This document shows positions 43,681 to 61,133 of a stretch of 64,000 nt of DNA, piece after piece (position 1 is the first letter of the stretch; every line of letters begins with the position of its first letter). Made by a program: the position numbers and the translations under genes. This DNA is from an uncultured Opitutaceae bacterium (GTDB taxonomy: Bacteria > Verrucomicrobiota > Verrucomicrobiia > Opitutales > Opitutaceae). Under the pieces are notes generated by a model. That model ran no database searches. It was not told where the DNA came from and saw only the letters and a program-made list of their open reading frames with translations. The stretch is from assembly GCA_903862935.1 (NCBI GenBank), contig CAIOZY010000013.1, positions 1-64,000 on the forward strand, in the 5' to 3' direction.

Positions 43681-45108
43681 ATGCTGTTGCGCCTCTGTTT
43701 GCCCTGGAGTCTGGGGCGGTGCCTGGGGGCTCTCGCCCTGGCGCTGACCCTGCCGACCGCAGTCCTCGGGCAAGCGCCCTCCGTGGCGGGGACGCTCCCT
43801 GAAGACTACCTGCCGGGACTCCGTGCCCTGATCGACTCGGGGCTGAAGCAGTCCCCCGAGATGATCGTTCGGGAGCTGAACATCGCGGTTGCCGACGCCC
43901 AGCGCATCGAGAACGGACTGTCGCCGCTCTTGCCCCGGCTCTCGGGGAACCTCTACTACGGGGCCTACCAGACCTCGGTGGCGAACAACTCCGGGGCCAA
44001 CAGCCGCAATAACGGCCTGTTCGGCGGGGCCACCCTCAGCCAGAACATCTTCCAGTGGGGCGCCCTCACCAACCAGCTCGAGGTCCAGAAGGTCGCCCAG
44101 CAGATGGCCCAGAAAAACTACGCGGAGGGCTACCGCGGCTTCGTGAGCACCCTGCGCCGCCAGTACCTGGCGCTCATCGTCGCGAAGATCACCGCCCGAA
44201 ACACCCGTTTCTCGCTGGAGGTCTCGCGCAAGGCGCTCGCCGTCGCCAACGAGAAGCTCAAGTCCGGCTCGATCGCCCCGACTGAAATGCTCGGCCCGCG
44301 CCTGGACGTGGAGCGGCTGGAGCTGGCGACTGACCGGAGCACCCAGGCCTACGAGGCGGCGCGGCGCGCGCTGGCCCACCAGGCCGGGCTCAAGGACATC
44401 GCCGACGAGGCCGTTCCCCTGGAGATCCCCGCCCCGACCTATCCGGCCGATGCGGCCTCGGCCCTGGCCGACGAGTTCATCAAGGACGGCGCCCGCGGCA
44501 CGTACCTGGAGCAGCTCGGCGAACTCAACGTGCGGCAGTGGGACCTGCGCTACCGGATCGCCAAGGTGCGCCTGCTCCCCCAGATCTCCGCCGACGCCTC
44601 GATCAGCCAGCAAAACCAGACCAACGCAAGCCCCGCCTCGGGGAGCAGCCCGGCCTCCGTCTCCCAGACCTCGCTGACGACGGAGAGCTACAGCGTGAAC
44701 GCCCAGTGGAACGTGTTCGACGGCCTGGCGACGCGCGGGGCGAAACTCGAGGCCCTCAGCAACCGCAGGATCGCCGAGAAGCAGCTGGAAAAGCAGGTCG
44801 ACGAGCTGATCGGCCTGGCCCAGAGCCTGCGGCACAGCTCGGAGTTCGCCTGGAGGGCCCTCCACATCTCCGACACCGAGTGGTCCTCGACCGAGGGGGC
44901 CCTGAAGTACGCCAAGACCGAGCTCGGCCTGGGCAACCTATCCCAGGACGCCGTCGACGGCGCCCAGAACAGCCTCAATGCCAACGACGCCGCCCGGGCC
45001 GCCGCCCGCGCGGACTTCCTGTCCACCTGGAGCGACTATGTCTCCCTGGTGGGCGCCGATCCGGCGATGAACAACCTGCCCAACCGCTATGCCCGCCCCA
45101 GCCCCTAG
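43681..45108 (+). CDS. TolC-family outer membrane efflux protein
   Basis: A 475-residue outer-membrane channel of the TolC family. The signal peptide covers about 1-30 (LGALALALTLPTAVLGQA). The mature protein has two repeats of long coiled-coil helices with short barrel strands, for example GLFGGATLSQNIFQWG and ESYSVNAQWNVFDGLATRG, which are TolC/OEP strand signatures. It heads an operon with a periplasmic adaptor, an FtsX-type permease and an ATPase, so the whole is probably a tripartite ABC exporter. Its end overlaps the adaptor gene by 20 bases. Confidence 0.9.
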   Translation: MLLRLCLPWSLGRCLGALALALTLPTAVLGQAPSVAGTLPEDYLPGLRALIDSGLKQSPEMIVRELNIAVADAQRIENGLSPLLPRLSGNLYYGAYQTSVANNSGANSRNNGLFGGATLSQNIFQWGALTNQLEVQKVAQQMAQKNYAEGYRGFVSTLRRQYLALIVAKITARNTRFSLEVSRKALAVANEKLKSGSIAPTEMLGPRLDVERLELATDRSTQAYEAARRALAHQAGLKDIADEAVPLEIPAPTYPADAASALADEFIKDGARGTYLEQLGELNVRQWDLRYRIAKVRLLPQISADASISQQNQTNASPASGSSPASVSQTSLTTESYSVNAQWNVFDGLATRGAKLEALSNRRIAEKQLEKQVDELIGLAQSLRHSSEFAWRALHISDTEWSSTEGALKYAKTELGLGNLSQDAVDGAQNSLNANDAARAAARADFLSTWSDYVSLVGADPAMNNLPNRYARPSP

Positions 45109-46258
45109 ATCCCGCCTCGCCCTGAAAGTGATCATCGCCGCGGCCGTCCTGGCCGCGGCCGCGGCGGTCGGGCTGCGCTCGCTGCGCCCCGTCGCCGTCA
45201 TTGAGCCGGTGGTGGCGGGCCGCGCGGTCCAGGCGGAGCCGGGCAACGTGACTGTGGTGGCGGAATACTCCCAGGAGCTGCGGGCAGACGTGGCCGGACG
45301 CCTGGTCCGCCAGGACTTCAACCTCGACCCGGGCCAGGCCGTCAAGGACGGCGACGTGCTCGCCCAGATCGACCCGACCGACCTGAAGCTTGCGATGCAG
45401 AAGGACCAGATCGACTTTGACGCGGCCAAGGCCCGCTTCCGGACGGACCGCTCGGGCGAACTGCTGCTCGAGTCGCTGCAGGCCGACATCGAGACCACCC
45501 GCCGGCTGAACAAGCTCGGGACCTACCCCGACGCCGAGCTGGCGAAGCGGGAGCGCGAGTTGAAGATCCAGCAGCAGCGCGGCGAGCTTGAGAAGATCGA
45601 GCACGCACAGACCCTGGCCACTTTCGAGAACACGCTCGCCGGGGAGCGGCACCGGCTGGCGCAGATGACGCTGCGTGCCCCCTTCGACGCCGTCGTGTCG
45701 GCCGTCTACAAGCACCCCGGGGACATGGTCGGCACGGGCGAATCGATCGCCACGCTGATCACCACCAAGAGGGTCGTCGAGGGCAAGATCAGCGAGGAGG
45801 ACTTCGCCCACGTCCGGGTGGGGCAGAAGGCGACCGTCACCTTCCTGCCGTACGGGCCGTGGGACTTCGACGCGGTGGTGTCCAAGATCCTGCCGACGGC
45901 CGACCCCGAGACCCAGCGCCACCTGGTGCTCCTGGACGTGAAGACCGACGCCGAGCATCCGCTCGTTCCGGGCATCAACGGGGAGATGAGCATCGTCGTC
46001 GGCGAGCGCGAGGCCAAGGCGATCGTCCCGAGGCGGGCCCTGTTCAGCCTGGACGGGGACAACGTGTACGTCGTCCGCGACGACCGGGTGGAGATGCGCA
46101 AGGTGAGGACCGGCTACGTCTGGGCCCGCGGCGCCGAGATCCTCGAGGGGCTCTCGGCCGGAGAGAAGGTCCTCGTGGAGGAGCTCGAGAGCTTCCATTC
46201 CGGCGACTCGGTCCGGGTGAAAGAGGTCCCCTCCGACGCCTTCAGCCCCAGCCACTAG
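45089..46258 (+). CDS. Periplasmic adaptor (HlyD/MacA-type membrane fusion protein)
   Basis: Links the inner-membrane permease to the TolC-like channel. An N-terminal membrane anchor (about 8-30, Ala/Val-rich) is followed by a biotinyl-lipoyl-like half (LRADVAGRLVRQDFNLDPGQAVKDGDVLAQID), a coiled-coil hairpin (about 105-190, ELAKRERELKIQQQRGELEK), the second lipoyl half (LRAPFDAVVSAVYKHPGDMVGTG) and beta-barrel and membrane-proximal domains. 389 aa is usual for MacA-like proteins. Confidence 0.9.
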   Translation: MPAPAPRSRLALKVIIAAAVLAAAAAVGLRSLRPVAVIEPVVAGRAVQAEPGNVTVVAEYSQELRADVAGRLVRQDFNLDPGQAVKDGDVLAQIDPTDLKLAMQKDQIDFDAAKARFRTDRSGELLLESLQADIETTRRLNKLGTYPDAELAKRERELKIQQQRGELEKIEHAQTLATFENTLAGERHRLAQMTLRAPFDAVVSAVYKHPGDMVGTGESIATLITTKRVVEGKISEEDFAHVRVGQKATVTFLPYGPWDFDAVVSKILPTADPETQRHLVLLDVKTDAEHPLVPGINGEMSIVVGEREAKAIVPRRALFSLDGDNVYVVRDDRVEMRKVRTGYVWARGAEILEGLSAGEKVLVEELESFHSGDSVRVKEVPSDAFSPSH

Positions 46259-46283
46259 AGAGAGCGCGCGCGACCCAGGCCCG

Positions 46284-47528
46284 ATGTCCCCGAATATCCG
46301 GATCGCCCTGCGGTTTCTGACCGCGAAGAAGCGCTCCATGCTGATGAGCCTGGCGTGCATCGTTTTGGGCGTCGGGCTGTTCATCGTCACCCAGGCGACG
46401 ACCAGCGGGTTTGAGGCGTACTTCATCCGCACGATCCTCGGGACCGACGGGGCCGTGCGCATCCAGGACAAGCTGCAGGCCACCATGCAAAGTATCGAGG
46501 CCGGCGGCTACGGATCGCCCTTCCAGATCCAAATCAAGAACGGACGCAAGTACATCGAGGGGATCGATTATCCGGTGGAGCTGGAGAAGACCCTGCGGAC
46601 CTTCCGCAACGTGGCCGGCGTCTCCGAGATCATCCACGGCCAGGCCACCGTCCGCAGCTCCTTCAAGGACGACACCGTCCAGGTCTACGGCATCTACCTG
46701 GAGGACCACCTCAAGGTCTCCGACCTGAAAAACCAGATCGCCTCCGGTTCGCTCATGACGTTCCGGACCGCGCCCGACGGGGCGCTCCTGGGGCGCGACA
46801 TGGCGACCCGCCTGCAGCTGGGGATCGGCGATTCGTTCCAACTCGAGGCGAACCACCAGGTGCGCCGCTTCCGCGTGAGCGCGATCTACGAGACGGGCGT
46901 CGCCGACATCGACAAGGTGCGGCTGTACCTGAACATGGACCAGGCCCGCTCGCTATTGAAGCGCACGACCGGGGCCTCCTACCTGCAGGTCAGCCTCTAC
47001 GACCGGGACCGGGCCGACCGGGACGCCCCCTGGATGGAGGAGGTCCTCAAGCACAGCGTCGCCTCGTGGCAGGAGAGGGAGCGGACCTGGCTGCAGGTCT
47101 TCAAGGCGCTCCGGATCTCCACGGGGATCACCGTGTCGGTCTTCACGCTCATCGCCGGACTGGCGATGTTCAACACCCTGGCGATGGTGGTCATGGAGAA
47201 GACCAAGGACATCGCGATCCTGCGCTCCATGGGCTACACCCGCAGGGACATCTCGAGGATCTTCCTGTGGCAGGCGGCAATCGTCCTGGCGCTGGGCACG
47301 GCCGGCGGGTGCCTGCTCGGGCTCGGGGTCACGTACGGGGTGTCGCTGATGCCGCTGCAAATTCGCGGGATCTTCGCCACGAACCACTTCATTGTGAACT
47401 ACTCGCTCTGGCACTATGTGGAGGCGGTCGCCACAGCCGTCGTCATGGTCATGGTGGCCAGCCTCATCCCCTCCCGCCGGGCGGCCCGGCTCGAGCCCGG
47501 CGACATCATCCGGGGGACCGCCCAGTGA
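46284..47528 (+). CDS. FtsX/MacB-like ABC transporter permease
   Basis: A 414-residue inner-membrane permease with one N-terminal helix (about 20-38), a large periplasmic domain (about 40-270) and three C-terminal helices with the FtsX signature FNTLAMVVMEKTKDIAILRSMGYTRRDISRIFLWQ. The end IPSRRAARLEPGDIIRG is typical of MacB/LolC-E. Its ATPase is a separate gene next to it. The type IV-A topology suggests a mechanotransmission exporter, not a channel-like transporter. Confidence 0.9.
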   Translation: MSPNIRIALRFLTAKKRSMLMSLACIVLGVGLFIVTQATTSGFEAYFIRTILGTDGAVRIQDKLQATMQSIEAGGYGSPFQIQIKNGRKYIEGIDYPVELEKTLRTFRNVAGVSEIIHGQATVRSSFKDDTVQVYGIYLEDHLKVSDLKNQIASGSLMTFRTAPDGALLGRDMATRLQLGIGDSFQLEANHQVRRFRVSAIYETGVADIDKVRLYLNMDQARSLLKRTTGASYLQVSLYDRDRADRDAPWMEEVLKHSVASWQERERTWLQVFKALRISTGITVSVFTLIAGLAMFNTLAMVVMEKTKDIAILRSMGYTRRDISRIFLWQAAIVLALGTAGGCLLGLGVTYGVSLMPLQIRGIFATNHFIVNYSLWHYVEAVATAVVMVMVASLIPSRRAARLEPGDIIRGTAQ

Positions 47529-47537
47529 GCCTTGCCC

Positions 47538-48224
<687 letters not shown>

Positions 48225-48375: not shown

Positions 48376-49029
48376 ATGTCGCACCTCTTTCCGAAGTCCG
48401 CTAACAAGCTTCCACTGCAGATCATCATCTATCTGTGCGTGATCGGGGTGGTCGCGACCGCCGGGATCACCTACTACATGACCCCGAAGTACACGCGGGT
48501 CGGATACGCCCCCGTGCAGCCGGTCCCCTATAGCCACGCGCTCCATGCGGGCCAGCTCGGGCTGGATTGCCGGTACTGCCACAGCAACATTGAGGCCTCC
48601 GGCCTGGCGAACCTGCCCACGGCGCAGACGTGCATGAACTGCCACAACCAGATCAAGACCGCGAGCCCGCTGCTGGCCGTGGTCCGCCGCAGCTACGCCA
48701 CGGGGCAGCCGGTCCCCTGGGTGCAGGTCCACCGCCTGCCCGACTTTGTGTACTTCAACCATTCGATCCACGTCGCCCGAGGGGTGGGGTGCGTCGAGTG
48801 CCACGGGCATATCAACCAGATGGAGACGGTCACCCACGACCAGCCGCTGACGATGGCCTTCTGCCTGGACTGCCACCGCGATCCGGCGCCCCGCCTGCGG
48901 CCCCGGGCGGAGGTCACCAACCTCGACTGGCGGGCGCCGAGCGCGGCCGCCCAGGACGCCATGGGACGCAAGTTCGTGCACGACTGGAATGTGAATCCTC
49001 CGCAAAGCTGCTCCGGCTGCCACCGATGA
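48376..49029 (+). CDS. actA: ACIII subunit ActA, pentahaem cytochrome c
   Basis: ActA is the multihaem cytochrome of alternative complex III, the menaquinol:cytochrome c/oxidase oxidoreductase that replaces complex bc1. A single N-terminal membrane helix (15-33) anchors the protein with the haem domain in the periplasm. Five CxxCH motifs bind haem c, at 65-69, 86-90, 139-143, 163-167 and 212-216. Extra histidines (for example H54, H57, H129, H132) are available as second axial ligands. It heads the operon; its stop overlaps the actB start (ATGA). Confidence 0.96.
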   Translation: MSHLFPKSANKLPLQIIIYLCVIGVVATAGITYYMTPKYTRVGYAPVQPVPYSHALHAGQLGLDCRYCHSNIEASGLANLPTAQTCMNCHNQIKTASPLLAVVRRSYATGQPVPWVQVHRLPDFVYFNHSIHVARGVGCVECHGHINQMETVTHDQPLTMAFCLDCHRDPAPRLRPRAEVTNLDWRAPSAAAQDAMGRKFVHDWNVNPPQSCSGCHR

Positions 49030-52000
49030 AACGCAAAGCTGCCCATCCCCATCCGTCCGAACGCGAGGCGAACGGCCCGAAGTACTGGCGCAGCCTCGAC
49101 GAGCTCGCCGGCTCCCCGGGCTTCCGAGCGCACCTGAAACGCGAATTTCCGGACGGGGCCTCGACCCTCGAGGGGGTGGATCGCAGGCAGTTCCTGAAGA
49201 TCATGGCGGCCTCCTTCGCCCTGGGCGGGGTGGGGATGGCCGGATGCCGGCGCCCGGAGTCGAACATCGTGCCTTTTGGGAAGTCCGTGGAGGGCTACAT
49301 CCAGGGCCTGCCCCTTTACTACGCGACGGCGATGCCGGTCCGCCGCTGGGCGCTCCCGCTGCTTGCCGAAACCCACGAGGGCCGGCCGACGAAGCTTGAG
49401 GGCAACCCCAAGTACGCCCCGCTCGGCGGTGCGAGTTCCCTGATGGCCCAGGCCTCCCTGCTGGACCTGTACGACCCGGACCGCGCGAGCGCGCACACCC
49501 GGGCGGGCGAGACTATCGACGCCGCGGAGGTATCCTCAATCCTGGCGGGGGTGGCCAAGGACTATGCCGGGTCCGGCGGCGCCGGGCTCGCCTTCCTTGC
49601 CGAGTCGTCCTCGTCGCCGACCCGGGCGCGGCTGGCGGAGCGCCTTCGCTCAAAGTTTCCCAAAGCGGTCTGGGCCGAGTACGAGCCGGTGTCCGACGAG
49701 CCCCCGGTTGAGGCGGCGCGGGCCGTTTTCGGCAGGGACGTCCGCCCGGTCTACCGTTTCGCAAAGGCCAAGCGCATCGTCTCCTTGGACGCCGACTTCC
49801 TGCACGCCGAGGCGGGCAGCCTCCTGTACGCCAGGGACTTCGCCAAGGGCAGGCGGGTGTCGAGCAAGGAGGACGCGATGAACCGCCTCTACGTGGCGGA
49901 AAGCGACTTCACCCTCACCGGGTCGATGGCCGACCACCGCCTCCGGCTGGCCTCAAGCCACATGCTCGCCCTCGCGGCCGCCCTGGCGGCCAAGGTGACC
50001 GGCGACGACTCCTACGGCTCGCTCGCAGCCGGCCTGGACGTCGATCCGCGCTGGGTTAACGAGTGCGCGGCCGACCTGGCCAGCAGCAAGGGAGAGTGCC
50101 TGGTCGTGGCCGGCTCGCACCTTCCCGCGGTCGTCCACGGGATCGTGTACGCGATCAACGCGGCCCTGGGCAACATCGGCAGCACGGTCGAGTTTGTGGA
50201 CTGCGCGGCTGCGCCCGCGGCCTCGATCACCGAGCTCGCCTCGGCGATTCGCGCGGGCTCGGTCAAGACCCTCTTTGTCCTGGGCGGGAACCCGGTCTAC
50301 AACGCTCCGGCCGACCTGGACTGGCGCTCGCTTCAGGGCTCGGTCAAGGACGTCGTCCGCTTCGGCTACTACCCCGACGAAACGTCGGCCGCAGCCGGAA
50401 CCCACATTGCCGCCGCCCACTACCTGGAGTCCTGGGGCGATGCCCGGGCCGTGGACGGGACGGTCCTTCCGATACAGCCCATGATCCTGCCGCTGTTCGG
50501 CGGGCTGACCGAGATCGAGGTCCTGGCGCGGCTGTCCGGCGAGGCCAAAGCAGACCCGCACGCTCTGGTCCAGGAGACACTCTCCTCGCTTGCGGGCGGC
50601 GACCCCGCCCGCTCTTTCGAGAAATTCCTCCACGACGGGCTGCTGGCCGACTCGGCCCTGCCCGCGATTCCGGTCGAGTTCGACGGGGCGGGCCTTGCGA
50701 AACTCGCCGCCGGAGCACCGAAACCGGCCGCCGTATCGGAGTCCTCGCTCGAGGTCAGGTTCGTCCCCGACTACAAGCTCGACGACGGCCGCTTCGCCAA
50801 CAACGGGTGGCTGCAGGAGTGCCCGAACCCGATCACGAAGATCTCCTGGGACAACGCGATCCTCGTGAGCCCGCGGCTGGGGAAGAAGCTTGGCATCCAG
50901 TCCAAGGGCTCGCTCCTCCAGGTCGCCCGCGACGAGACGGCCAACTTCACCAAGGGGATCGAGGGGGCGCCGGTCGCCGAAATCACGGTGGGGGGGCGCA
51001 CGATCCGCGGCCCCTTGCACATCCAGCCGGGGCTGTCCAACTGGACGATCATCCTTCCGCTCGGCTACGGCCGCCCGGCCGCGGGCCGCGTGGGCCACGG
51101 GGCCGGCTTTGACGCGTACCCGCTGCGCACTGCGGAATCGCCCCACGTCGCCACCGGGGGCTCCCTCAGGCTGACCGGCGAGCGGCTGATCCTCGCCAAC
51201 ACCCAGGAGCACTGGTCGATGGAGGGCAGGGACTTGGTCCGCGAGGCGAACCTTTCGGAGTTCCACGAGGCCCCGGGCTTCGTCAAGGAGGTGGGGATGG
51301 AGGCCGAGGGCCCGTCCGTCCTCGGCGAGGAGGGCGAGAAGATGCCGCTCGCCGGGCAGGTGTCCGAGATCCCGCGAGGCAACTCGCTTTACAAGACGCC
51401 CAAGTTCGACGGCGTGCACCAGTGGGGCATGAGCATCGACCTGAACACCTGCATCGGGTGCAACGCCTGCGTTGTCGCCTGCCAGGCCGAAAACAACATC
51501 CCGATCGTAGGCAAGGACCAGGCCGTGCGCGGCCGCGAGATGCACTGGATCCGGCTCGACCGGTACTACTCGGACGGAAAGGCCGAAGGGGCGGCCTTCG
51601 GCGGCGAGGGCAACAAGGAGATCCCGGAGGATCCGCAGGTCTCGCTCCAGCCGGTCGCCTGCATGCAGTGCGAGCTGGCGCCCTGCGAGATGGTCTGCCC
51701 GGTGAACGCCACGGTTCACGATGAGGAGGGGCTCAACGTCATGGCCTACAACCGGTGCATCGGCACCCGGTACTGCGCCAACAACTGCCCCTACAAGGTC
51801 AGGCGCTTCAACTACTTCGACTGGAACGAGCGCAAGATCGGCAGTTTCTACATGGGCCCGCTCGGGCCGCAGGGGATGCCAGAATTGGTGAAGATGGCGA
51901 AGAACCCCGAGGTGAGCGTCCGCATGCGCGGCGTCATGGAAAAGTGCACCTACTGCGTCCAGCGGATCGAGAACGGAAAGATCCAGTGGAAGGTCAAGGC

Positions 52001-52319
52001 GGCCAAGGACGGCCGCCCCGGCGATGTGTCGGTCCCCGACGGGACGATCCGCACGGCCTGCCAGCAGGTCTGCCCGGTGGAGGCGATCGTCTTCGGAAAC
52101 CTCCTCGATCCCCGCAGCGCGGTGGCGCAGGCCAAGGACCGACCCCAGGACTACGCGCTTCTGGGCTACCTGAACATCCGGCCTCGCACCACCTACCTGG
52201 CGAAGCTGCGCAACCCGAATCCGCGCATGCCCGACTACCACGCGCTCCCGCTCAGCCGCATCGAACATGACCGCAAGAACCGCGCCGCGGAGGCCAAGGA
52301 ATCCGGAGGGACCCGCTGA
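49026..52319 (+). CDS. actB: ACIII subunit ActB, fused Mo-oxidoreductase-like and Fe-S protein
   Basis: ActB is the large periplasmic subunit, a fusion of a molybdopterin-oxidoreductase-like half (about 80-780) that lacks the cofactor in this family, and a four-cluster ferredoxin half (about 800-1060). Fe-S motifs are visible: [44 protein letters not shown] and CTYCVQRI with CQQVCPVEA. The N-terminus has a twin-arginine-type motif (DRRQFLKIM, 52-60) followed by MAGC (71-74), so Tat export with a lipid anchor is possible. The 1097 residues begin at the ATG overlapping the actA stop. Confidence 0.95.
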
Positions 52320-53740
52320 TGGCCCACGCCGCTGACCCACACGTTGCCGCCCCGGCGATCCTCCAGGAGGTTCAGCCGGCCGACCTTCCGCGGCCGAAAC
52401 TGGTCGACCACGACCGCAGCTTCACCTGGATCACCGACAAGATCTGCGGGATCATCGAGGGAAAGACCCCGGTGTGGTGGTGGTGGTGCTTCGGGGTGGC
52501 CTGCTTCATCGCGTGCTTCACCGTCGCCGGTATCACCTACGTGGTCGCGACCGGAGTGGGCGTCTGGGGCCACCGCACGCCCGTCAACTGGAGCTGGCCG
52601 ATCGTCAACTTTGTCTTCTGGATCGGCATCGGCCACGCCGGGACCCTGATCTCGGCGATCTTGTGCCTGCTGCGCCAGAAGTGGCGCACCTCGATCAACC
52701 GCTCGGCCGAGGCGATGACGATCTTCGCGGTGGTCTGCGCGGGCATCTTCCCGGTGTTCCACGTCGGGCGGGTGTGGTACGCGTGGTTTTTGTTCCCGCT
52801 GCCCAACTACAACATCGTCTGGCCCCAGTTCCGCTCCCCGCTGGAGTGGGACGTCTTCGCGGTGTCCACCTACGGGACGGTATCGGTCCTGTTCTGGTAC
52901 GTCGGCATGATCCCGGACCTGGCGACCCTGCGCGACCGCTTCGCCGCCGCCGGCAACCGCCTGCGCGCCCGGCTCTACGGGTTCTTCGCGATGGGCTGGC
53001 GGGGCTCGAGCCGCGCCTGGAGCAACTACGAGATGGCCTACCTGATTCTGGCCGGGATCGCCACCCCGCTCGTCCTGTCGGTCCACACGATCGTCTCCTT
53101 CGACTTCGCCGTCTCGCTAGTCCCCGGCTGGCACACGACCATCTTCCCCCCGTACTTCGTCGCCGGAGCGATCTTCTCCGGGTTCGGGATGGTCCTGACC
53201 CTGATGCTGCCGATGCGCGCGGTCTACCGCCTCGAGGACCTGATCACGCAGTACCACATCGACTGCATGTGCAAGATCACCTTGGCGACGGGCACGATGG
53301 TGGGCTACGCCTACGCGATGGAGTTCTTCATCGCCTGGTACGGAGCGAACCCCTACGAGGGCTTTGCGTTCATCAACCGCGCCTTCGGGCCCTACGCCTG
53401 GTCGTACTGGATCATGATCACCTGCAACGTGATCACGCCCCAGTTCTTCTGGTTCAAGGCGGTGCGCCGGAACACAACATTCGTCTGGGTGCTGTCCCTG
53501 TTCGTCAACGTCGGCATGTGGTTCGAGCGGTTCGTCATCATCTGCACCTCGCTCACGCGCGACTTCCTGCCCTCGAGCTGGGGGTACCTCAGCCCCACGA
53601 TCGTCGACATCTTCACCTTCTTCGGAACCTTCGGCATATTCGCCGTCTTGTTCCTGCTGTTCATCCGGTTCCTGCCGCTGATGGCCATGGCCGAGATCAA
53701 GGCGGTCACGCCGCAGGCCGACCCGCACTCCCACGCCTAA
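52319..53740 (+). CDS. actC: ACIII subunit ActC, NrfD/PsrC-like quinol-binding membrane protein
   Basis: An integral membrane subunit of 473 residues with about ten hydrophobic helices of the NrfD/PsrC type, which in ACIII provides the menaquinol-oxidation site facing ActB. Distinct segments include [68 protein letters not shown] and FEGPM-less but family-like [13 protein letters not shown]. The start overlaps the actB stop by one base (TGATG). Confidence 0.95.
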
Positions 53741-53753
53741 AACGATCCCGAAC

Positions 53754-54287
53754 ATGGCTGCTCAACCCTACGGTCTGATCGCCGGCTTCTCGAATCCCTC
53801 CGAGATCTTCCACGCGGCGGAGAAGGTCCGGGACGCCGGCTACACGCGCTGGGACTGCATCACGCCGTTTCCGGTCCACGGCCTGGACAACGCGATGGGC
53901 GTGAAGCGCTCCATGGTTCCGCGCTTCTCTCTTGTCGGTGGCATCACCGGGTTTTGCACCGGCATGTCCATGATCTGGTACATGAACGGCTACGACTACA
54001 CGCTGACGGTCGGCGGCAAGCCCCTGTTCAGCCCGATGTTCGCCTTCCCGGTCTCCTACGAACTGACGATCCTGTTCACGGCCTTCGCGACGATCATCGG
54101 CATGTTCGTCCTCAACGGTCTGACGAAACTCTACCACCCGATCCTCAAGTACGAGCACATCCGGCGCGCCACCAGCGACACGTTCTACATCGTGATCCAG
54201 GCTGACGACCCGCGCTACAACCCGGCCAACACGCGCACCCTGCTCGAGACGATCGGTGGGCGCGACGTCGCCGAACTGGAAGCCTGA
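53754..54287 (+). CDS. actD: ACIII subunit ActD (DUF3341-type membrane protein)
   Basis: A 177-residue subunit with two transmembrane helices (about 62-82 and 97-120) and cytoplasmic ends. The family core is visible: YGLIAGFSNPSEIFHAAEKVRDAGYTRWDCITPFPVHGLDNAMGVKRS, and later NGLTKLYHPILKYEHIRRATSDTFYIVI. It stabilises the membrane part of ACIII. It follows actC by 13 bases and precedes actE by 2. Confidence 0.94.
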   Translation: MAAQPYGLIAGFSNPSEIFHAAEKVRDAGYTRWDCITPFPVHGLDNAMGVKRSMVPRFSLVGGITGFCTGMSMIWYMNGYDYTLTVGGKPLFSPMFAFPVSYELTILFTAFATIIGMFVLNGLTKLYHPILKYEHIRRATSDTFYIVIQADDPRYNPANTRTLLETIGGRDVAELEA

Positions 54288-54289
54288 GC

Positions 54290-54937
54290 ATGCGCACCGT
54301 CTACCTCGTAACGGCCTTCGTCCTGGTGCTGGGGATCTCCGTGCTGGGGTTCCGCGGCAAGGTGTTCACGCACACCCCGATGGACGTGTTCCCGGACCTG
54401 CTCTTCCCCGGAATGAAGGTGCAGCCCAAGTTCCGGGCCCAGGGCACCAGCAGTTTTTTTGCCGACGGGCGGATCGACCGGATGCCGCCGGCCGGGACGG
54501 TGCCCGCATCGGGCCCGCTCAAAGACGACGACGCCCTCTACCTCGGAAAGGCCGCTGACGGCTCCTGGATCCGGGTCTTCCCGGCATCGGTCACCGTCAA
54601 CCGCAGGCTGCTGGAGCGGGGCCGCGAGCGCTACGGGATCTATTGCGCGCCCTGCCACGGGGGCCTGGGCGACGGCAACGGGGTCACGAAGCGCTACGGC
54701 ATGGGGGCCACCCCCAGCTACCACGACGAGCGCCTGCGCCAGATGAGCGAGGGGCAGATTTTCGACACGATCACCCACGGCAAGGCGCCCGCCTACAACA
54801 TGAACCCGTACGCCGACAAGCTCACCCCGGAGGACCGCTGGGCCGTGGTCGCGTACGTGCGGGCCCTGCAAAAGACCCAGACCGGCACGCTCGACGAGGT
54901 GCCGGCCAAGAACCGCCCGGAGCTAGGCCTAAAATGA
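54290..54937 (+). CDS. actE: ACIII subunit ActE, monohaem cytochrome c
   Basis: A 215-residue membrane-anchored cytochrome c (N-terminal helix 5-20). One haem motif CAPCH at 119-123, with a later Met in AYNMNPYADKLTPEDRW as likely sixth ligand. In ACIII it takes electrons from ActA and passes them to an oxidase or soluble cytochrome. The stop overlaps the actF start by three bases (ATGA). Confidence 0.95.
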   Translation: MRTVYLVTAFVLVLGISVLGFRGKVFTHTPMDVFPDLLFPGMKVQPKFRAQGTSSFFADGRIDRMPPAGTVPASGPLKDDDALYLGKAADGSWIRVFPASVTVNRRLLERGRERYGIYCAPCHGGLGDGNGVTKRYGMGATPSYHDERLRQMSEGQIFDTITHGKAPAYNMNPYADKLTPEDRWAVVAYVRALQKTQTGTLDEVPAKNRPELGLK

Positions 54938-56193
54938 GCACCCCCGCTGTACACGCGCCGGCCGCCGCGGCCTCCGTCCCCACTGTCCCGGCCCTCGCGA
55001 CAAAGTCCCTCGCCGTGGGGCTCGCCGGGATTGCGCTGACTGCCCTCGGCCTGCTGATCTCGGGCAGCCACGCGGTGGCCACCGCATGGCTTGTGGGCCT
55101 GTCGTTTTGGACGGCGATGGCGATCGGGATGCTCCTGCTGGTCCTGATCCACCACGTGTTCGACGCGATGTGGTCGACGGTCCTTCGCCGGCAGCTTGAG
55201 CACGGCCTGGCGGCCTTCCCGTGGCTGGCGCTGTTGTTTTTGCCGCTGCTTTTGGCGACCTGGTTCGGGGCCCGGGACATTGTCTGGCCGTGGCTCAACC
55301 CGGCCCACGTGGTGCTCCCCGAGGGGAAGACCGTCGGGGCGGACCTGATCTACGCGAAGAAGTCAGGTTTCCTCAACCTGAAGGCCCTCACGATTGCCAC
55401 GGTCGCCTTCTTCGCGGTGTGGATCTGGCTTTCGGCGAGGCTGCGCAAGGCCTCGTTCTCCCAGGACGCCGATGGCGACATCAAGTGGACCCGGATGAAC
55501 CGGGTCACCGCGGGTTTTGGCCTGCCGCTGGCGGCTCTCTCCCTGACCTTCGCCGCGATCTACTGGATCAAGAGCCTGGAATACCACTGGTTCTCGACCA
55601 TGTACGGGGTGTGGTACTTCACCAACTGCATGCGGGGCGCCTACGCGCTGGGGGTGGTCATCATGTTCTGGCTTTGGACCCGCGGCGACTACAAGGGAAT
55701 CCTGCACCAGGACCACTGGCACAGCATCGGCAAGATGATGTTGGCCTTCACCGTGTTCTGGGGCTACATCGCCTTCTCGCAGTACTTCCTGATCTGGAAC
55801 GCGAACATGCCTGAGGAGACCTTCTGGTACAACCTGCGCGAATACGGCGACTGGTGGGGGGTGGGGATGGTGCTCGTCTTCGGGCACTTCCTGCTCCCGT
55901 TCCTGCTCCTGCTGTCGTACCGCTACAAGGTGAAGCCGGCGATCCTGCAGCGGATCGCTCTGTGGATCCTGGCGGTGATCTTTATCGACCTGTGCTGGAA
56001 CATCCTGCCGGCGATCAAGGACGCCCACGGCAACCCGCAGCCGTTCCTCTCGCTGAACCTGTTGTGGGCCGCAACCTCCACGGCCGGGGTCGGCGGCGTG
56101 TGCGTCTGGGCGTACCTGCGGAGCTTCTCGACGGCCAAACTGATCCCGATCCGCGACCCGCGCATCGGCGAGTCCCTTGTCCACCATGAGTGA
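54934..56193 (+). CDS. actF: ACIII subunit ActF, NrfD-like membrane protein
   Basis: A second NrfD-type integral membrane subunit (419 aa, about ten helices) paired with ActC in the complex. It carries ACIII-typical SLEYHWFSTMYGVWYFTNC and TVFWGYIAFSQYFLIWNANMPEET, the latter aligned with a conserved helix of ActF. In the family it is thought to add structure or a proton path, not the main quinol site. The stop lies inside the next small gene (8-base overlap). Confidence 0.94.
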   Translation: MSTPAVHAPAAAASVPTVPALATKSLAVGLAGIALTALGLLISGSHAVATAWLVGLSFWTAMAIGMLLLVLIHHVFDAMWSTVLRRQLEHGLAAFPWLALLFLPLLLATWFGARDIVWPWLNPAHVVLPEGKTVGADLIYAKKSGFLNLKALTIATVAFFAVWIWLSARLRKASFSQDADGDIKWTRMNRVTAGFGLPLAALSLTFAAIYWIKSLEYHWFSTMYGVWYFTNCMRGAYALGVVIMFWLWTRGDYKGILHQDHWHSIGKMMLAFTVFWGYIAFSQYFLIWNANMPEETFWYNLREYGDWWGVGMVLVFGHFLLPFLLLLSYRYKVKPAILQRIALWILAVIFIDLCWNILPAIKDAHGNPQPFLSLNLLWAATSTAGVGGVCVWAYLRSFSTAKLIPIRDPRIGESLVHHE

Positions 56194-56521
56194 CCAACCC
56201 GCATCGTCCCCGCGCCCGGTGGGCCCCGCTGCGGTCCTTGCGATCTTCGCGGGATTCGCGCTTTTCTTCGCCCTGGCGTGGGTGGCCTACGTGCCGCACC
56301 GGCCGGCCTCCCCGCAGGACAGCGCAGCCGAGAAGCTGCCGGCCGACCAGGCCTGGAAGGCGACCCCGCAGACCCGGAAGGCCTATCTGCTCGAGCTTAG
56401 GGCCCGGCAGGACCAGCAGCTGAGCAGCTACGGCTGGGTGGACGAGAAGGCCGGCGCCGTCCGCCTTCCGATCGAGCGGGCGATGGACCTCGTGGTTCGC
56501 CAGTACGGCCCGAAACCCTGA
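56186..56521 (+). CDS. Small single-helix protein of the ACIII operon
   Basis: A 111-residue protein not recognised by name. One transmembrane helix (about 15-37, AAVLAIFAGFALFFALAWVAYV) is followed by a short charged periplasmic part ending in YGWVDEKAGAVRLPIERAMDLVV, a motif that looks conserved and resembles short segments seen near haem-copper oxidase and ACIII genes (YGW-D-x-GxxRIPI-RAM). It may be a small accessory subunit of the ACIII/CcoN-like assembly. The start overlaps actF by 8 bases. Confidence 0.75.
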   Translation: MSDQPASSPRPVGPAAVLAIFAGFALFFALAWVAYVPHRPASPQDSAAEKLPADQAWKATPQTRKAYLLELRARQDQQLSSYGWVDEKAGAVRLPIERAMDLVVRQYGPKP

Positions 56522-56546
56522 GCCCCCAACTCTTTTCCCAGCCCAA

Positions 56547-57956
56547 ATGACCACCGCTCCAATCCAAGCCGGCCCGACCTCCGGTGAATGGGACGCCCCG
56601 GCCGGCGCAGGCGCCGCTGGTGCGCCAGGCCGCGGCCCGCTTCTTTTCCTGATCGGATCGGCCCTCGTGTGGCTCGTCGTCAGCGGCGTCTTCGCCCTGA
56701 TCGCCTCGATCCAGCTCCACACGCCGGGTTTCCTGTCCGACTGCCCGATCCTGACCCACGGCCGGGTGCGCGTGCTTCAGGAGACCGCCTTTGTCTACGG
56801 CTGGCTCGGAACCGCCGGCCCCGCGCTTGCGGTCTGGATCCTCGGGCGGCTGTCCGGCTCGCCCCTGCGGGGCACCTCTTGGCTGGGAGTGGGGGCCGCC
56901 TTCTGGAACGCCGGGCTTGCGCTCGGCCTGGTTGGTATCGCCATCGGGGACGGCACCGGCACGGCCCTGTTCGGCCTGCCGGCCTACGTCCACCCGGTGA
57001 TGCTCGCCTCCTACGCGGCGATCGCGATCGCGGGGGTGCTGGCCTGGACCGGCCGGAGGCGGGGCCCGATGTTTGCGGCCCAGTGGTACGCCGCCGCGGC
57101 CCTCTTCCTGTTTCCATGGCTGTTCTCGGCCGCGGACATCATGCTGGTGCTCGCGCCGGTTCGCGGCGTCCTCCAGGCAGTCGTCGCCGGGTGGTTCGCC
57201 CAGGGCCTGTGGACGCTGTGGATGGCGCCCCTTGCGCTGGCGGGCGCCTACTACGTCGTGCCCCGGCTCACCGGAAAGACCCTTCCCAACTACGACGCGG
57301 CCTCGCTCGGCTTCTGGTGCCTGGTGTTTGTGGGCGGCTGGACCGGTGGAAGGCACCTGATCGGCGGCCCGGTGCCCGCCTGGATCTCGACCCTGGCCGT
57401 CGTGACGACGGCGATGCTTGTCTTCCACTATGTCGTGGTGGCCCTGAACCTGAGGCCAGCCCTGGGCGCCGGCTCGGTCCTTCGCTTCATCGCCTTCGGC
57501 GTCGGCTCCTATGTGCTCGGCGGGTTCGTAGACGCGGTGACCGCGGCGCGCAGCGTGGCGGTCTCGACCCAGTTCACGACCTTTGACCAGGCCCAGCAGC
57601 AGCTCGCCCTCTACGGCGGGGTCTCGATGCTGCTTTACGGGACCCTGTACTTTGCGATCCCCCGGATCGCCGGGCGGGCGTGGTCCTCGGCGGACCTGCT
57701 CCGCGGCCATTTCGCGCTCGCGGCAACCGGGATCGCGCTCCTGGTCGTCAGCCTAGGCGCAGCGGGCCTGTCCCAGGGCCGCGACCTGGCGGATCCCTCG
57801 GTCAGTTTCGCCGCGATGGCGACCCACATGCAGGTGTGGCTCCTGGTGGCCACAGGCGCCCAGGCGATCCTGCTGCTGGGCAACCTGCTCCTGGCCGTGA
57901 ATTTCCTGGAGACGGCCGTCCTCAAGCCGGGTTCGGGGGAGGGCGTAGCATCATGA
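56547..57956 (+). CDS. CcoN-like haem-copper oxidase subunit I homologue lacking most metal ligands
   Basis: A 469-residue membrane protein with about 12 helices, homologous to cbb3 oxidase subunit I (CcoN). Hand alignment to the CcoN pattern: THGRVRVLQETAF replaces the low-spin haem ligand His with Gln78; GWFAQGL replaces the CuB His of the WYGHN motif with Gln219; GGRHLIGGPVPAW changes the CuB His-His pair to Arg269-His270; and QAQQQLALYGG replaces the HVHxGALGW haem ligands with Gln350 and Gln352. Five of six ligand histidines are therefore lost. The protein probably cannot bind haem b3 or CuB and is unlikely to reduce oxygen. Its operon place after ActF and before CcoO-like genes suggests a structural or electron-docking role. 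Confidence 0.85.
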   Translation: MTTAPIQAGPTSGEWDAPAGAGAAGAPGRGPLLFLIGSALVWLVVSGVFALIASIQLHTPGFLSDCPILTHGRVRVLQETAFVYGWLGTAGPALAVWILGRLSGSPLRGTSWLGVGAAFWNAGLALGLVGIAIGDGTGTALFGLPAYVHPVMLASYAAIAIAGVLAWTGRRRGPMFAAQWYAAAALFLFPWLFSAADIMLVLAPVRGVLQAVVAGWFAQGLWTLWMAPLALAGAYYVVPRLTGKTLPNYDAASLGFWCLVFVGGWTGGRHLIGGPVPAWISTLAVVTTAMLVFHYVVVALNLRPALGAGSVLRFIAFGVGSYVLGGFVDAVTAARSVAVSTQFTTFDQAQQQLALYGGVSMLLYGTLYFAIPRIAGRAWSSADLLRGHFALAATGIALLVVSLGAAGLSQGRDLADPSVSFAAMATHMQVWLLVATGAQAILLLGNLLLAVNFLETAVLKPGSGEGVAS

Positions 57957-58594
57957 AGAACGGTTTTGTATTCTTCGTCGGCATCTTCGCCGCCCTGGGC
58001 CTGTCCTGGGCCGGGATCGTGCTCGGGTCCAATTCCCAGGTCGGGGGGCTCACCGGCTACTACGACGACAGCGACGGCCAGTCCTACCCGCTGAGACCCT
58101 CCGGCGAGGCCGCCGCCGGGCTTTTGGTCTACCGCGATCTCGGGTGCGCCTCGTGCCACACCCAGCAGGTGCGCCGGCCCGGGTTCGGCTCCGACCAGGC
58201 CCGGGCGTGGGGCGAGCGCCAGAGCGTCGCCCGCGATTACATCTACCAGACGGCCGTTCAGCTCGGCGACTTCAGGTACGGACCGGACCTTGCGAACCTG
58301 GCGACGCGCAAGCCGACCGCCCCGGACCGCGAGAGCCTGATGAGGCTGCTCTACACCGGCCAGGGGGCCATGCCGGCCTATTCCTTCCTCTTTGAGACGC
58401 GGAAGATCTCGGGGCAGGCCTCCGACCTAGCGCTTAAGCTTCCGGCCGGCCTGGAGCCCAGGAAAGGCCGCCAGGTCGTTCCCACGGCCCGGGCCGAGAG
58501 GCTGGTCGCCTACCTGCTGAGCCTGGGGACGGCCTACGACTATCCCGAGGCGCGCCCCGCGCCGCACGCCGCCAAGGAGGGCGCCGACAAATGA
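57953..58594 (+). CDS. CcoO-like membrane-anchored monohaem cytochrome c
   Basis: A 213-residue cytochrome c of the CcoO type. The N-terminal helix (5-24) is followed by a periplasmic domain with haem motif CASCH (65-69), the CcoO-like sequence after it (HTQQVRR) and YGPDLANLATR, with the axial Met140 in GAMPAYSFL. In canonical cbb3, CcoO passes electrons to CcoN; here the partner gene just upstream has lost its haem ligands, so the electron acceptor is unclear. The start overlaps the stop of that gene by four bases. Confidence 0.88.
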   Translation: MKNGFVFFVGIFAALGLSWAGIVLGSNSQVGGLTGYYDDSDGQSYPLRPSGEAAAGLLVYRDLGCASCHTQQVRRPGFGSDQARAWGERQSVARDYIYQTAVQLGDFRYGPDLANLATRKPTAPDRESLMRLLYTGQGAMPAYSFLFETRKISGQASDLALKLPAGLEPRKGRQVVPTARAERLVAYLLSLGTAYDYPEARPAPHAAKEGADK

Positions 58595-59256
58595 GCTCCC
58601 CGTCCCAACCGGATCCCCGCTTTGAGAAGGCCAAGCTCGGCGATGACGAGCTGCTCGTCGCCCACGAGAAGGCGCTCGGCCCGAAGCCCGACGAGCGGGC
58701 GCGCTACCGGCTGGCGCCCCTGATGATGCTCTTTGCGATGGCCGGAGTGATCCTCTTTGCGGCCACCTACCTGAACCGCTACTCGGGCCGGTTTGACCGC
58801 TCGGTCTACGACGAGACGGCCCTGCCCAACGCCGGCGGCGCGGCCGAGGCCAAGGTCGACCCGGCCGTGGCCGGAAAGCGGCTCTTCGGAACCCCCGGGG
58901 CCTGCGTCACCTGCCACCAGGCCACCGGCGAGGGGATACCCGGGGTCTATCCGCCGCTTGCGGGCTCGGAGTGGGCGACCGGCTCGGAGGAGCGCGTCAT
59001 CCGGATCGTGCTCTTCGGGCTCAAGGGCCCGGTCCGCGTCCGGGGCACCGATTTTCCCGGCACGGCCGCGATGCCCGCCTTCGGGGCGAGCGGCTTTGCC
59101 TGGAGCGACGAGAAGATCGCCGCCGTCTTGACGTACGTCCGCCAGGAGTGGGGCAACAAGGCCGCCGCGGTCACCCCGCAGCAGGTGCACAAGATCCGTC
59201 AGTCGGTGGGCGAGCGCAAGGAGTGGACCCAGGACGAGCTGCTGACGGTCAAGTGA
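58591..59256 (+). CDS. Membrane-anchored monohaem cytochrome c
   Basis: A 221-residue cytochrome c with one membrane helix (about 43-60) and a single CVTCH haem motif (105-109). The methionine ligand is probably in GTAAMPAFGASG. It is placed like CcoP, but CcoP normally carries two haems; here only one is present. The N-terminal 40 residues are charged and cytoplasmic (LGDDELLVAHEKALGPKPDERARYR). The start overlaps the CcoO-like stop by four bases, so these last genes form a translation-coupled unit. Confidence 0.9.
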   Translation: MSSPSQPDPRFEKAKLGDDELLVAHEKALGPKPDERARYRLAPLMMLFAMAGVILFAATYLNRYSGRFDRSVYDETALPNAGGAAEAKVDPAVAGKRLFGTPGACVTCHQATGEGIPGVYPPLAGSEWATGSEERVIRIVLFGLKGPVRVRGTDFPGTAAMPAFGASGFAWSDEKIAAVLTYVRQEWGNKAAAVTPQQVHKIRQSVGERKEWTQDELLTVK

Positions 59257-59277: not shown

Positions 59278-60318
59278 CTACTGCCCGAGGCGGCGGTCGG
59301 GGCCCAGGTAGTTGAGCACGTAGTCCGCCACGGCCCCCGAAAGGGGCGTGACCGGCCTCGCGTAGCCGCTTGCCCGCAGTTTTCCGATATCGGCGCGGGT
59401 GAAGTACTGGTATTTCTCCCGCAACTTTTCCGGGAGCGCAACGAACTCGATCCGGGGTTCGCGGCCGAGGGCGGCGAAGATCGGCCGCACGAGCTCCAGC
59501 CAGGTGCTGGCAATCCCCGACCCGAGGTTGAACAGGCCCCCGGCGGCGCGCCCCGCGTCGGCAAAGTGGAGGGTCATCTCGACGGCGTCCTTCACATAGA
59601 GGAAGTCGCGCATCTGCTCGCCGTGCCGGTAGTCCGGGTGCTCGCTCTTGAAGAGCCTCACACTGCCGCCGGCCAGGATCTGCTGGTGGGCCTTGGCCAC
59701 GAGGGAGCGCATGTCGCCCTTGTGGGCCTCGTTCGGGCCGAAAACGTTGAAGTACTTCAGGCCGACCACGCGGTCCAGCCATCCCTGGGACTGGGCGAAC
59801 AGGTCGAAGGCCTGCTTGGATCGCCCGTAGGCGTTCAGGGGTGCGAGGCGGTCCAGGTGGTCGTCCTTGTCGTCCATTCCCGCCGAGCCGTCGCCATAGG
59901 TGGCCGCGGAGGAGGCGTAGACAAAGCGCGCGCCCTGGGCGAGGGCCCAGCGGGCTAGGAGGGTAGAGTAGTCGATGTTCACCTCCTGCAGGTACGCTCC
60001 GTTGTCCTGCGTCGTGGAGGAGCACGCCCCGAGGTGAAAGACAGTCGAGAAGTGCCCGTAGGCCGAGGGGCGCCTGGCGATCGCGTCCCGAAAGACGTCC
60101 GCCTCGATAAACTCCGCGTAGTGCAGGGGCGAGAGGTTGCGGCGCTTGTCGGCGGAGTTCTCCCCGAGGGGGATGAGGCCTTTCCAGCGCTTGTCGGCCT
60201 CGATGAAGTCGACGACCACGATGTCGCGCAGGCCGCGTCCGTTCAAGGCCCACACCAAAGCGCTGCCGATGAAGCCCGCGCCACCGGTGACAAGGATCCG
60301 TCCGGAAAGGGGCGTCAT
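59278..60318 (-). CDS. hldD: ADP-glyceromanno-heptose 6-epimerase
   Basis: Makes ADP-L-glycero-D-manno-heptose for the LPS core. This is a 346-residue short-chain reductase-type epimerase: TGGAGFIGSALV (NADP), FHLGACSSTTQ, YASSAATYGDG, and Tyr/Lys of the catalytic YGRSK. KYFNVFGPNE and HPDYRHGEQMRDFLYVKD are HldD-typical. The start overlaps the proC stop by four bases. It supports, with lpxK and lptD, a heptose-containing LPS. Confidence 0.93.
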   Translation of the reverse strand: MTPLSGRILVTGGAGFIGSALVWALNGRGLRDIVVVDFIEADKRWKGLIPLGENSADKRRNLSPLHYAEFIEADVFRDAIARRPSAYGHFSTVFHLGACSSTTQDNGAYLQEVNIDYSTLLARWALAQGARFVYASSAATYGDGSAGMDDKDDHLDRLAPLNAYGRSKQAFDLFAQSQGWLDRVVGLKYFNVFGPNEAHKGDMRSLVAKAHQQILAGGSVRLFKSEHPDYRHGEQMRDFLYVKDAVEMTLHFADAGRAAGGLFNLGSGIASTWLELVRPIFAALGREPRIEFVALPEKLREKYQYFTRADIGKLRASGYARPVTPLSGAVADYVLNYLGPDRRLGQ

Positions 60319-61133
60319 GACCGCGGAGGCTCCTCCCGCGCAATCTCAGCGGCGCGGGCCTGGGCGGCGAGCACGGCTTCCCTGAGGGCCTGCCTGAAGC
60401 CGCCCGCGGAAAGCCGGCGCAACCCCGCAAGGGTCGTTCCGTTGGGGGAGGTGACCTCGTCGCGCAGCGCTTCCGGGGCCTCGCCGCGGGAGGCCAGGAG
60501 CCGGGCCGAGCCGAGCAGGGTCTCTACGGCGAGCTCCTTGGCCGAGGCGGGATCGAGCCCGGCCGCAACGCCCGCGTCCCGCAGGGCCGCGGCAAACTCG
60601 AAGACATACGCCGGACCGCTGCCGCTGAGGCCCGTCACAGCGTCCATCTGGGACTCGGGGACCTGCAGCGCCTTTCCCAGGGGCGCCAGCAGCGCCGCCA
60701 GGAGCCGGTTGTCGGCCTCCGAGAGGGGCTGCAGCGCGCACCAGGCGGTGATTCCGGCGCCGATCCGGGACGGGGTGTTGGGCATGCACCGAACGAGGTT
60801 CCGGGCCTGCGGGAAGGTCCGGGAGAGGACCCCGAGGGGCTTGCCGGCGAGGACCGAGACCACGAGCAGGCCGCGGGTGAGGGCCGCAAGCCGGGGGTCG
60901 GCCGAGGCGAGGTGCTGCGGCTTGAAGGCGACGACCAGGACGTCCGCCCCGGCGCACAGTTCGTCGGCGGAGCGGGCCTCGTTGATCGAGGCGCGGGCGG
61001 CGAGCCTGGCGCCGCTGCCGCGCGGTCCGCCCAGGCAGGCGATCGAACCCCGCGATGCGGGGTCTTTGGCCAGCAGGCCGTCGACCATGGCGGAGGCCAT
61101 GTTGCCGGCACCGAGAAAGGCGATTTTCGGCAT
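60315..61133 (-). CDS. proC: Pyrroline-5-carboxylate reductase
   Basis: NADPH-dependent last enzyme of proline synthesis (272 aa). The Rossmann motif FLGAGNMASAMVDGLL, the active-site region RCMPNTPSRIGAG and the signature VTGLSGSGPAYVFEFAAALRDAGVAAGL are all present; the last includes the ProC family signature helix. It is coupled to hldD by a four-base overlap. The receiver-kinase gene lies 4 bases upstream on the same strand. Confidence 0.94.
   Translation of the reverse strand: MPKIAFLGAGNMASAMVDGLLAKDPASRGSIACLGGPRGSGARLAARASINEARSADELCAGADVLVVAFKPQHLASADPRLAALTRGLLVVSVLAGKPLGVLSRTFPQARNLVRCMPNTPSRIGAGITAWCALQPLSEADNRLLAALLAPLGKALQVPESQMDAVTGLSGSGPAYVFEFAAALRDAGVAAGLDPASAKELAVETLLGSARLLASRGEAPEALRDEVTSPNGTTLAGLRRLSAGGFRQALREAVLAAQARAAEIAREEPPRS

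Follow-up and report, generated by a model that had tools for sequence, protein, structure and literature searches.

Direct electron transfer from alternative complex III (ACIII) to the oxidase encoded next to it in the operon has been proposed or tested in Rhodothermus and Flavobacterium (passages of PMC5928083 and PMC8552683); in Flavobacterium, according to the same passages, transfer to the oxidase survives deletion of ActE, so that the exact electron outlet differs between organisms. In verrucomicrobial methanotrophs, genes linked to ACIII have been called a cbb3 oxidase and tied to high oxygen affinity (in a section of PMC6688271), the cbb3 type is listed among the terminal oxidases (in an excerpt of PMC10205796), and strain IT6 is described as having genes of the aa3 and cbb3 types next to those of ACIII (in an excerpt of PMC11102522); a section of PMC8498564 gives the pairing of a C-type oxidase with ACIII as occurring only in these methanotrophs and in Opitutaceae, and Refojo 2010 is cited in the sections of PMC8498564 and PMC6688271. 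For Verruconatronum, an isolate of the Opitutales, three genes right after actABCDEF are listed as a caa3 oxidase (in an excerpt of PMC13274419).

The locus described here lies in the window, the whole 64-kb stretch of DNA that was analyzed, which belongs to a draft genome of 3.35 Mb. To our knowledge, no heme-copper oxidase core is known that has been stripped of its metal ligands and yet kept, and no description of such ligand loss was found in the accessible portions of the open-licence literature.

The ACIII operon and its CcoN-derived subunit

The operon has the order actABCDEF-s-N-O-P and occupies positions 48376-59256 of the forward strand (Table 1), in agreement with the gene order that an earlier reading of the bare DNA (hereafter the sequence-only reading) had given. 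In the window and in most of its relatives, the act genes stand 5′ of N on the same strand, the arrangement by which an ACIII operon was recognized. The open reading frame of N has exactly the extent given in Table 1 and encodes 469 amino acids; ATGA overlaps occur at both the N/O and O/P junctions. The start of actB was inferred to be the methionine of MKRKAAHP. Five CxxCH motifs also occur in the ActA proteins of most relatives; ActB produced no molybdopterin-domain Pfam match at E 0.001, only iron-sulfur domains, the Pfam search gave no match for ActF, and s matched none of the families searched, Pfam included. A scan for promoters and terminators performed no better than on shuffled sequences.

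Directly 5′ of actA and on the same strand (window positions 45089-48224) are genes for an HlyD-type fusion protein, a MacB/FtsX permease, and an ABC ATPase; starting approximately 20 bases past the end of P, genes for an NAD-dependent epimerase and a pyrroline-5-carboxylate reductase-like protein occupy positions 59278-61133 of the reverse strand. At two loci elsewhere, L064 (a second copy in genome G002) and L194, the act cluster gave matches for A, C, E, s, N, O, and P and none for B, D, and F; possibly this is a reduced second ACIII, or a failure of detection.

Table 1. Genes of the ACIII operon in the window, with the evidence for each assignment.
Gene and product	Position	Strand	Evidence
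actA, pentaheme c-type cytochrome	48376..49029	+	Cytochrome_C7 PF14522, 54.3 bits; five CxxCH
actB, iron-sulfur protein	49026..52319	+	4Fe-4S domains; homolog in act clusters of relatives
actC, NrfD-like subunit	52319..53740	+	NrfD PF03916, 93 bits
actD	53754..54287	+	ActD PF11821, 213.4 bits
actE, monoheme cytochrome c	54290..54937	+	PF13442, 50.7 bits; CxxCH
actF	54934..56193	+	Named by position; homologs in the same place in relatives
s, small protein	56177..56521	+	Precedes N in most loci
N, CcoN-derived subunit	56547..57956	+	Most heme/Cu ligands gone: Q78, Q219, G263, R269, H270, Q350, Q352
O, CcoO/FixO-like monoheme cytochrome	57953..58594	+	FixO PF02433, 39.9 bits (cut-off 29.6); CxxCH
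P, monoheme cytochrome c	58591..59256	+	PF00034, 44.3 bits (cut-off 21.3)

By core homology, N belongs to the heme-copper oxidase superfamily: it matches COX1 (PF00115) with 117.4 bits (cut-off 34.8) over residues 34-438, and its best solved relatives are subunit I chains of cbb3 oxidases (9g6b_A, E 5.5e-14). The match to the ccoN family model (TIGR00780) is weak, at 71.7 bits against a family cut-off of 583.15; O, with 39.5 bits, likewise stays below the cut-off of the ccoO equivalog (200.65).

The ligand columns were set from the true CcoN sequences of relatives and are labeled H60, H207, Y251, H257, H258, H345, and H347, which we take to be the CcoN residue numbers; in these seven columns the window's N reads Q, Q, G, R, H, Q, and Q. 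Both histidines of the low-spin heme pair are gone (Q78 and Q352), the high-spin heme histidine is replaced by Q350, and among the CuB histidines and the cross-link tyrosine (Q219, R269, H270, and G263, respectively) one of four is kept; in all, five of the six heme and copper histidines and the tyrosine are replaced, and H270 is left. The phmmer alignment to the solved CcoN chain 9g6b gives the same pairing as both of the MAFFT alignments that include true CcoN sequences, which excludes misalignment as the cause of the missing ligands; no histidine occurs within five residues of Q78, Q219, Q350, or Q352. The sequence-only reading had placed Gln78, Gln219, Arg269-His270, and Gln350/Gln352 at the ligand sites and had spoken of the loss of nearly all ligands; at the level of aligned sequence, this near-total loss is confirmed, with one ligand histidine of six remaining.

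Ligand loss across the class

Relatives of the window's protein were met in 82 of 95 related genomes, and a profile search across the class produced matches in 232 of 286 genomes, both counts including matches to true CcoN. The alignment comprised 126 family members, namely N-like matches fetched from related genomes and 40 class loci hand-picked by family code among the matches listed, with genome draws that were not random within families; a fragment (L110) and three members of another, ligand-complete group (L117-L119) were dropped before counting. The remaining 122 members divide into 39 with a complete site and 83 without, a ratio that describes the sample and not a natural frequency. Among these 83 lost copies, none of the six histidines is kept in 26, one in 47, two in eight, three in one, and five in one; 73 of the 83 therefore retain at most a single histidine. 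All 14 copies from the window's own genus are without a complete site, and so are all 80 named loci (the best 80 of 349 relatives, a set skewed toward the window's own clade), 79 of which have arginine in place of the first histidine of the pair. The same stripped state is found in the single-contig genomes G015, G060, G059, and G064; two named isolates, Cephaloticoccus primus and C. capnophilus (L223, L225), show it as well.

The sequence-only reading had named an alternative in which the homologs retain all six histidines and this copy alone has decayed. Complete homologs in the same operon do exist, but the window's N is not a lone decayed copy, a candidate ruled out by the lost state in the family alignment and in the 80 named loci; the ligand changes recur in the N proteins that stand beside the act genes of relatives. 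Since 39 of 122 members are complete, and 35 of these have act genes upstream, the stripped state is derived, and arose more than once. Among the 39 family codes sampled, lost copies occur in 22, complete copies in 20, and both in three.

Four lost copies keep the low-spin pair, the three members of family f36 (L273-L275) and L283. In L273-L275 (L273:8929-10428) the low-spin bis-histidine is present and the CuB and high-spin ligands are gone, with the motif HNSQRYH or HNAQRYH; in L283 (genome G186), six of the seven residues are intact and a single CuB histidine has changed to arginine. The N protein of L273-L275 is possibly a one-heme intermediate, and that of L283 possibly a first step; judged by their residues, these copies look like stages of loss. 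The group set aside before counting (L117-L119, in G060, G015, and G019) is a further ligand-complete heme-copper group with a GYYMHQGV motif and a two-heme O-like partner; no act genes were found beside its members in the 19-kb loci. An “unknown group” of heme-copper proteins is on record (Muntyan 2015, as cited in a passage of PMC5492636).

In a tree of N built with the ligand neighborhoods removed, the complete and lost states require five changes; in a combined tree of ActB, ActC, and ActF (110 rows, each with two or all three of the proteins, six of the rows under half filled), they require 23 changes, and the number of losses rises to 29 when loss is taken to be irreversible. A single clade of lost copies is rejected by the AU test with p = 2.6e-76 in a 40-row N subset and p = 4.3e-5 in a 35-row act subset, both subsets having been chosen after the trees had been seen. 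On these trees, ligand loss has happened more than once, independently, within this class of the Verrucomicrobiota. The disagreement between five and 23 would arise either through long branches or through exchange of N-O-P between operons: the lost N lineages have long branches, so that the N tree may draw lost copies together, and transfer of N-O-P from one operon to another may render the act tree misleading.

Selection, partner cytochromes, and genomic setting

In hand-picked sequence pairs, dN/dS of lost N is 0.09-0.39 in 16 of 18 (two are saturated), that of complete N is 0.13-0.19 in six of nine (three are saturated), and that of ActC is 0.00-0.17 in the same pairs, where ActC is present (it is absent for some); the frames run from stop to stop and include some upstream DNA, which inflates dN. 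Constraint is weaker on lost N than on complete N or ActC, yet lost N is far from neutral; these values rule out a simple pseudogene, and the open reading frames are intact in the lost copies used. At least two relatives from the class-wide search, among the matches listed, contain one in-frame TGA (G254:C193:2081-3142 and G335:C18:137390-138745); they are possibly pseudogenes or assembly errors.

Conservation extends over both complete and lost N in 26 columns and is confined to complete N in 41; those listed among the 41 include the six ligand histidine columns, not the tyrosine. Columns outside the ligand set that are fixed in complete and drifting in lost N are R75, E140, W215, N220, and T227. 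Within the window's clade of 31 copies, R269 is found in all 31, H294 in 30, E79 and D329 in 29 each, and Q219 in 28, where complete copies have H (R269), P (H294), L (E79), G (D329), and H (Q219); these clade-conserved residues lie at or beside former cofactor positions, and would appear to fill the vacated pocket as a polar network. The sequence-only reading had regarded the repeated change to glutamine as a sign of selection. Its conclusion that N is kept by selection stands, but its argument is weak, because glutamine and arginine are one base away from histidine codons and the replacements differ in other lineages. Of the 420 replaced ligand cells, 251 are one-base neighbors of histidine codons, and arginine at either position of the CuB pair occurs in 50 of the 83 lost copies. 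Glutamine replacements alone were consequently dropped as proof of selection, and clade-specific conservation, dN/dS, the kept operon, and the kept c-heme motifs seem the better evidence.

The partner cytochromes have retained their heme motifs. CxxCH is present in O of all 83 lost and all 38 complete operons, in P of 78/79 lost and 37/37 complete operons, and in ActE of 80/81 lost and 34/35 complete operons; the likely axial methionine occurs in O of 86% and in P of 95% of lost copies, and in all complete copies of both. Thus the earlier description of a ligand-less CcoN look-alike, kept by selection in an ACIII operon with cytochromes whose heme motifs are intact, holds up. Other residues of O and P erode together with the center of N, which suggests that the contact of N with O and P is changing: from complete to lost operons, W128 of O falls from 100% to 37% and H132 from 97% to 43%, and R30, E31, and P35 of P fall from 97-100% to 32-33% (E31 from 100% to 32%). 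An N-terminal glutamate of CcoP is the entry of a proton path in cbb3 oxidases; the loss of E31 in P would fit a proton path that is no longer needed.

Lost copies stand behind act genes on the same strand in 81 of 82 cases (the window's own row, L004, not counted); for the remaining copy, the upstream sequence amounts to no more than 264 bases. The same applies to 35 of 39 complete copies; the other four (L092, L113, L268, and L299) do not, with 7.4-8.9 kb of upstream DNA. The resulting difference (N outside the act context in 4/39 complete vs. 0/81 lost copies) has a Fisher p of 0.010, which ignores shared ancestry and gaps in draft genomes. With “another oxidase” defined by count, as two or more PF00115 matches per genome, and with L092 and L113 left out, N is the sole PF00115 match in none of 82 genomes with lost N and in three of 37 with complete N (p = 0.028, again ignoring shared ancestry and draft gaps); the three sole-oxidase genomes of the 119 counted, G065 (80% complete), G070, and G097, all have complete N, and in G123 the N protein itself is not among the listed PF00115 matches. 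The two states coexist in genome G083, where L081 is a lost N behind act genes and L113 is a complete N-O-P located elsewhere, apart from them.

A search of the window's own genome for a second, ligand-complete heme-copper oxidase, as the sequence-only reading had suggested, found two types: a CcoN in a 782-amino-acid frame, with 615 bits (above the family cut-off) and all seven residues (L059), and an A-type CoxA with 529.5 bits to PF00115. An A-type-like cox1 gene follows within 6 kb downstream on the same strand in 15 loci, all of them from outside the taxonomic order of the window; it is not meaningfully commoner beside lost N (11/65) than beside complete N (4/35). That loss was observed only behind act genes, and with another oxidase present, suggests that the terminal step has been handed over.

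Within this class, pmoA marks the verrucomicrobial methanotrophs. A pmoA-type gene is present in 12 of 12 genomes of family f35 and in none of three others tested. Relatives of N occur in 11 of the 12 f35 genomes (L276-L278, L308-L318), and all 11, one of them a fragment, are ligand-less; the three whose context was read stand behind act genes, with cox1 a further 1.36-1.39 kb on, and canonical CcoN above the cut-off was found in none of the 12. The f35 genomes are linked to the published methanotroph strains by family, not by accession, and the published “cbb3 oxidase” beside methanotroph ACIII is, from the residues of the f35 copies, probably non-catalytic. Homology-based annotation has then probably taken a non-catalytic protein for a high-affinity oxidase, which bears on the low-oxygen life of these methanotrophs.

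Interpretation and comparison with known systems

It is rather probable, in our view, that an ACIII-coupled C-family oxidase has repeatedly been stripped to a cofactor-free scaffold, which holds O and P as an electron outlet of ACIII. The ancestor of N-O-P would have been a C-family (cbb3-like) heme-copper oxidase joined by operon to ACIII, and this ancestry of N explains the operon. The oxygen-reducing center of N would have been dismantled in the lineage of the window, and on several occasions in other parts of the class, by removal of the low-spin heme ligands, the high-spin heme ligand, the CuB ligands, and the cross-link tyrosine; the membrane body would be retained as a probably cofactor-free scaffold that holds O and P, with one c-heme motif each, against ActA/ActE. 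Electrons would pass from quinol to ActA, ActE, the hemes of O/P, and finally to another oxidase, which may be the downstream A-type-like enzyme in some lineages and a separate CcoN-type or A-type enzyme in this genome. Ligand loss, its repetition, selection on the frame, the kept operon with its c-heme motifs, and the other oxidases were computed here; from these we infer the assembly of N-O-P with ACIII, the absence of heme from N, the electron path, and the scaffold or docking role. Points against this reading are the disagreement of the N and act trees on the number of losses, the freer evolution of lost N, the erosion of O and P residues together with its center, and the absence of a meaningful excess of cox1 downstream of lost N.

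Alternatively, the vacated pocket of N may have come to bind something else, whether a quinone, a lipid, or a heme on new residues (e.g., E79/R269/H270/H294/D329), as could be indicated by the recurrent arginine at the CuB pair and by the polar residues, R269 above all, that the window's clade conserves at or near the old cofactor sites. We consider this unlikely: other lost clades carry other residues and a common new site was not seen, H270 and H294 are separated by 24 residues in sequence, and a cavity-filling polar network accounts for the same residues. Less likely again is that N assists in the assembly of O, P, ACIII, or another oxidase and is not itself a lasting subunit; a body conserved without ligands and the ATGA coupling of N to O would be consistent with such a role, but the complete homologs at the same place in the operon resemble oxidase subunits.

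If N were functionless and decaying, and survived as an operon hitchhiker that is translationally coupled to O and P, the long N branches of lost lineages, dN/dS values that in several pairs exceed those of complete N or ActC, and the in-frame TGA of two relatives (among the matches listed) would find a ready explanation; nevertheless, dN/dS is well below 1 in every unsaturated pair, complete and lost copies have 26 conserved columns in common, the G-R-H signature persists in most of the best 80 of 349 loci (R in 79 of 80), and the copies used have open frames, so that decay is quite improbable. Many of the genomes used are drafts assembled from metagenomes, and the missing ligands might be suspected to be an artifact of alignment or assembly; with three concordant alignments, no histidine within five residues of the four glutamine sites, and the stripped state in single-contig genomes and in the Cephaloticoccus isolates, this is extremely improbable.

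A wider claim can be made, for and against which the case seems to us evenly balanced: an ACIII-linked machine that carried electrons from quinol to oxygen would have become an oxygen-inert electron outlet five times at the least, and perhaps over 20 times, the methanotroph “cbb3” would be one such stripped form, the f36 lineage (three genomes) would have halted half-way with its low-spin pair, and N-O-P would be a standing, oxidase-derived module of ACIII. The recurrent loss provides natural replicates: within a single operon setting there are complete forms, forms short of one ligand, half-stripped forms, and stripped ones; these make it possible to test the need of ACIII for an attached cytochrome outlet, and the role of an oxidase body without its chemistry.

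Among described systems, the ACIII and C-type oxidase of methanotrophs and Opitutaceae share the gene neighborhood of the window and constitute a published sighting of the pairing (sections of PMC8498564 and PMC6688271); it was published as a cbb3 oxidase, whereas the 11 N proteins from pmoA-bearing genomes, one a fragment, are all without the ligands. In the ACIII-caa3 and ACIII-aa3 supercomplexes of Rhodothermus marinus and Flavobacterium johnsoniae, oxidase genes also follow the ACIII genes, but there the linked oxidase is catalytic and of the A-type, whereas here it is a C-family subunit whose center has been lost. Compared with CcoN of cbb3 oxidases (TIGR00780; 9g6b, 3mk7, 6xkw), the window's N is homologous over residues 39-456 (9g6b), and O is CcoO/FixO-like; N differs in the absence of five histidines and the cross-link tyrosine, in a score far below the cut-off, and in its place in an act operon. 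CcoP of cbb3 oxidases carries two CxxCH motifs, and P of the window only one. Finally, domain B1 of ActB has a molybdoenzyme fold and no molybdenum cofactor, a feature general to ACIII, and represents a precedent within the same complex for a redox-enzyme fold minus its metal cofactor; yet its fold differs from that of N, and the loss in B1 is general to ACIII, whereas the loss in N is repeated and still polymorphic.
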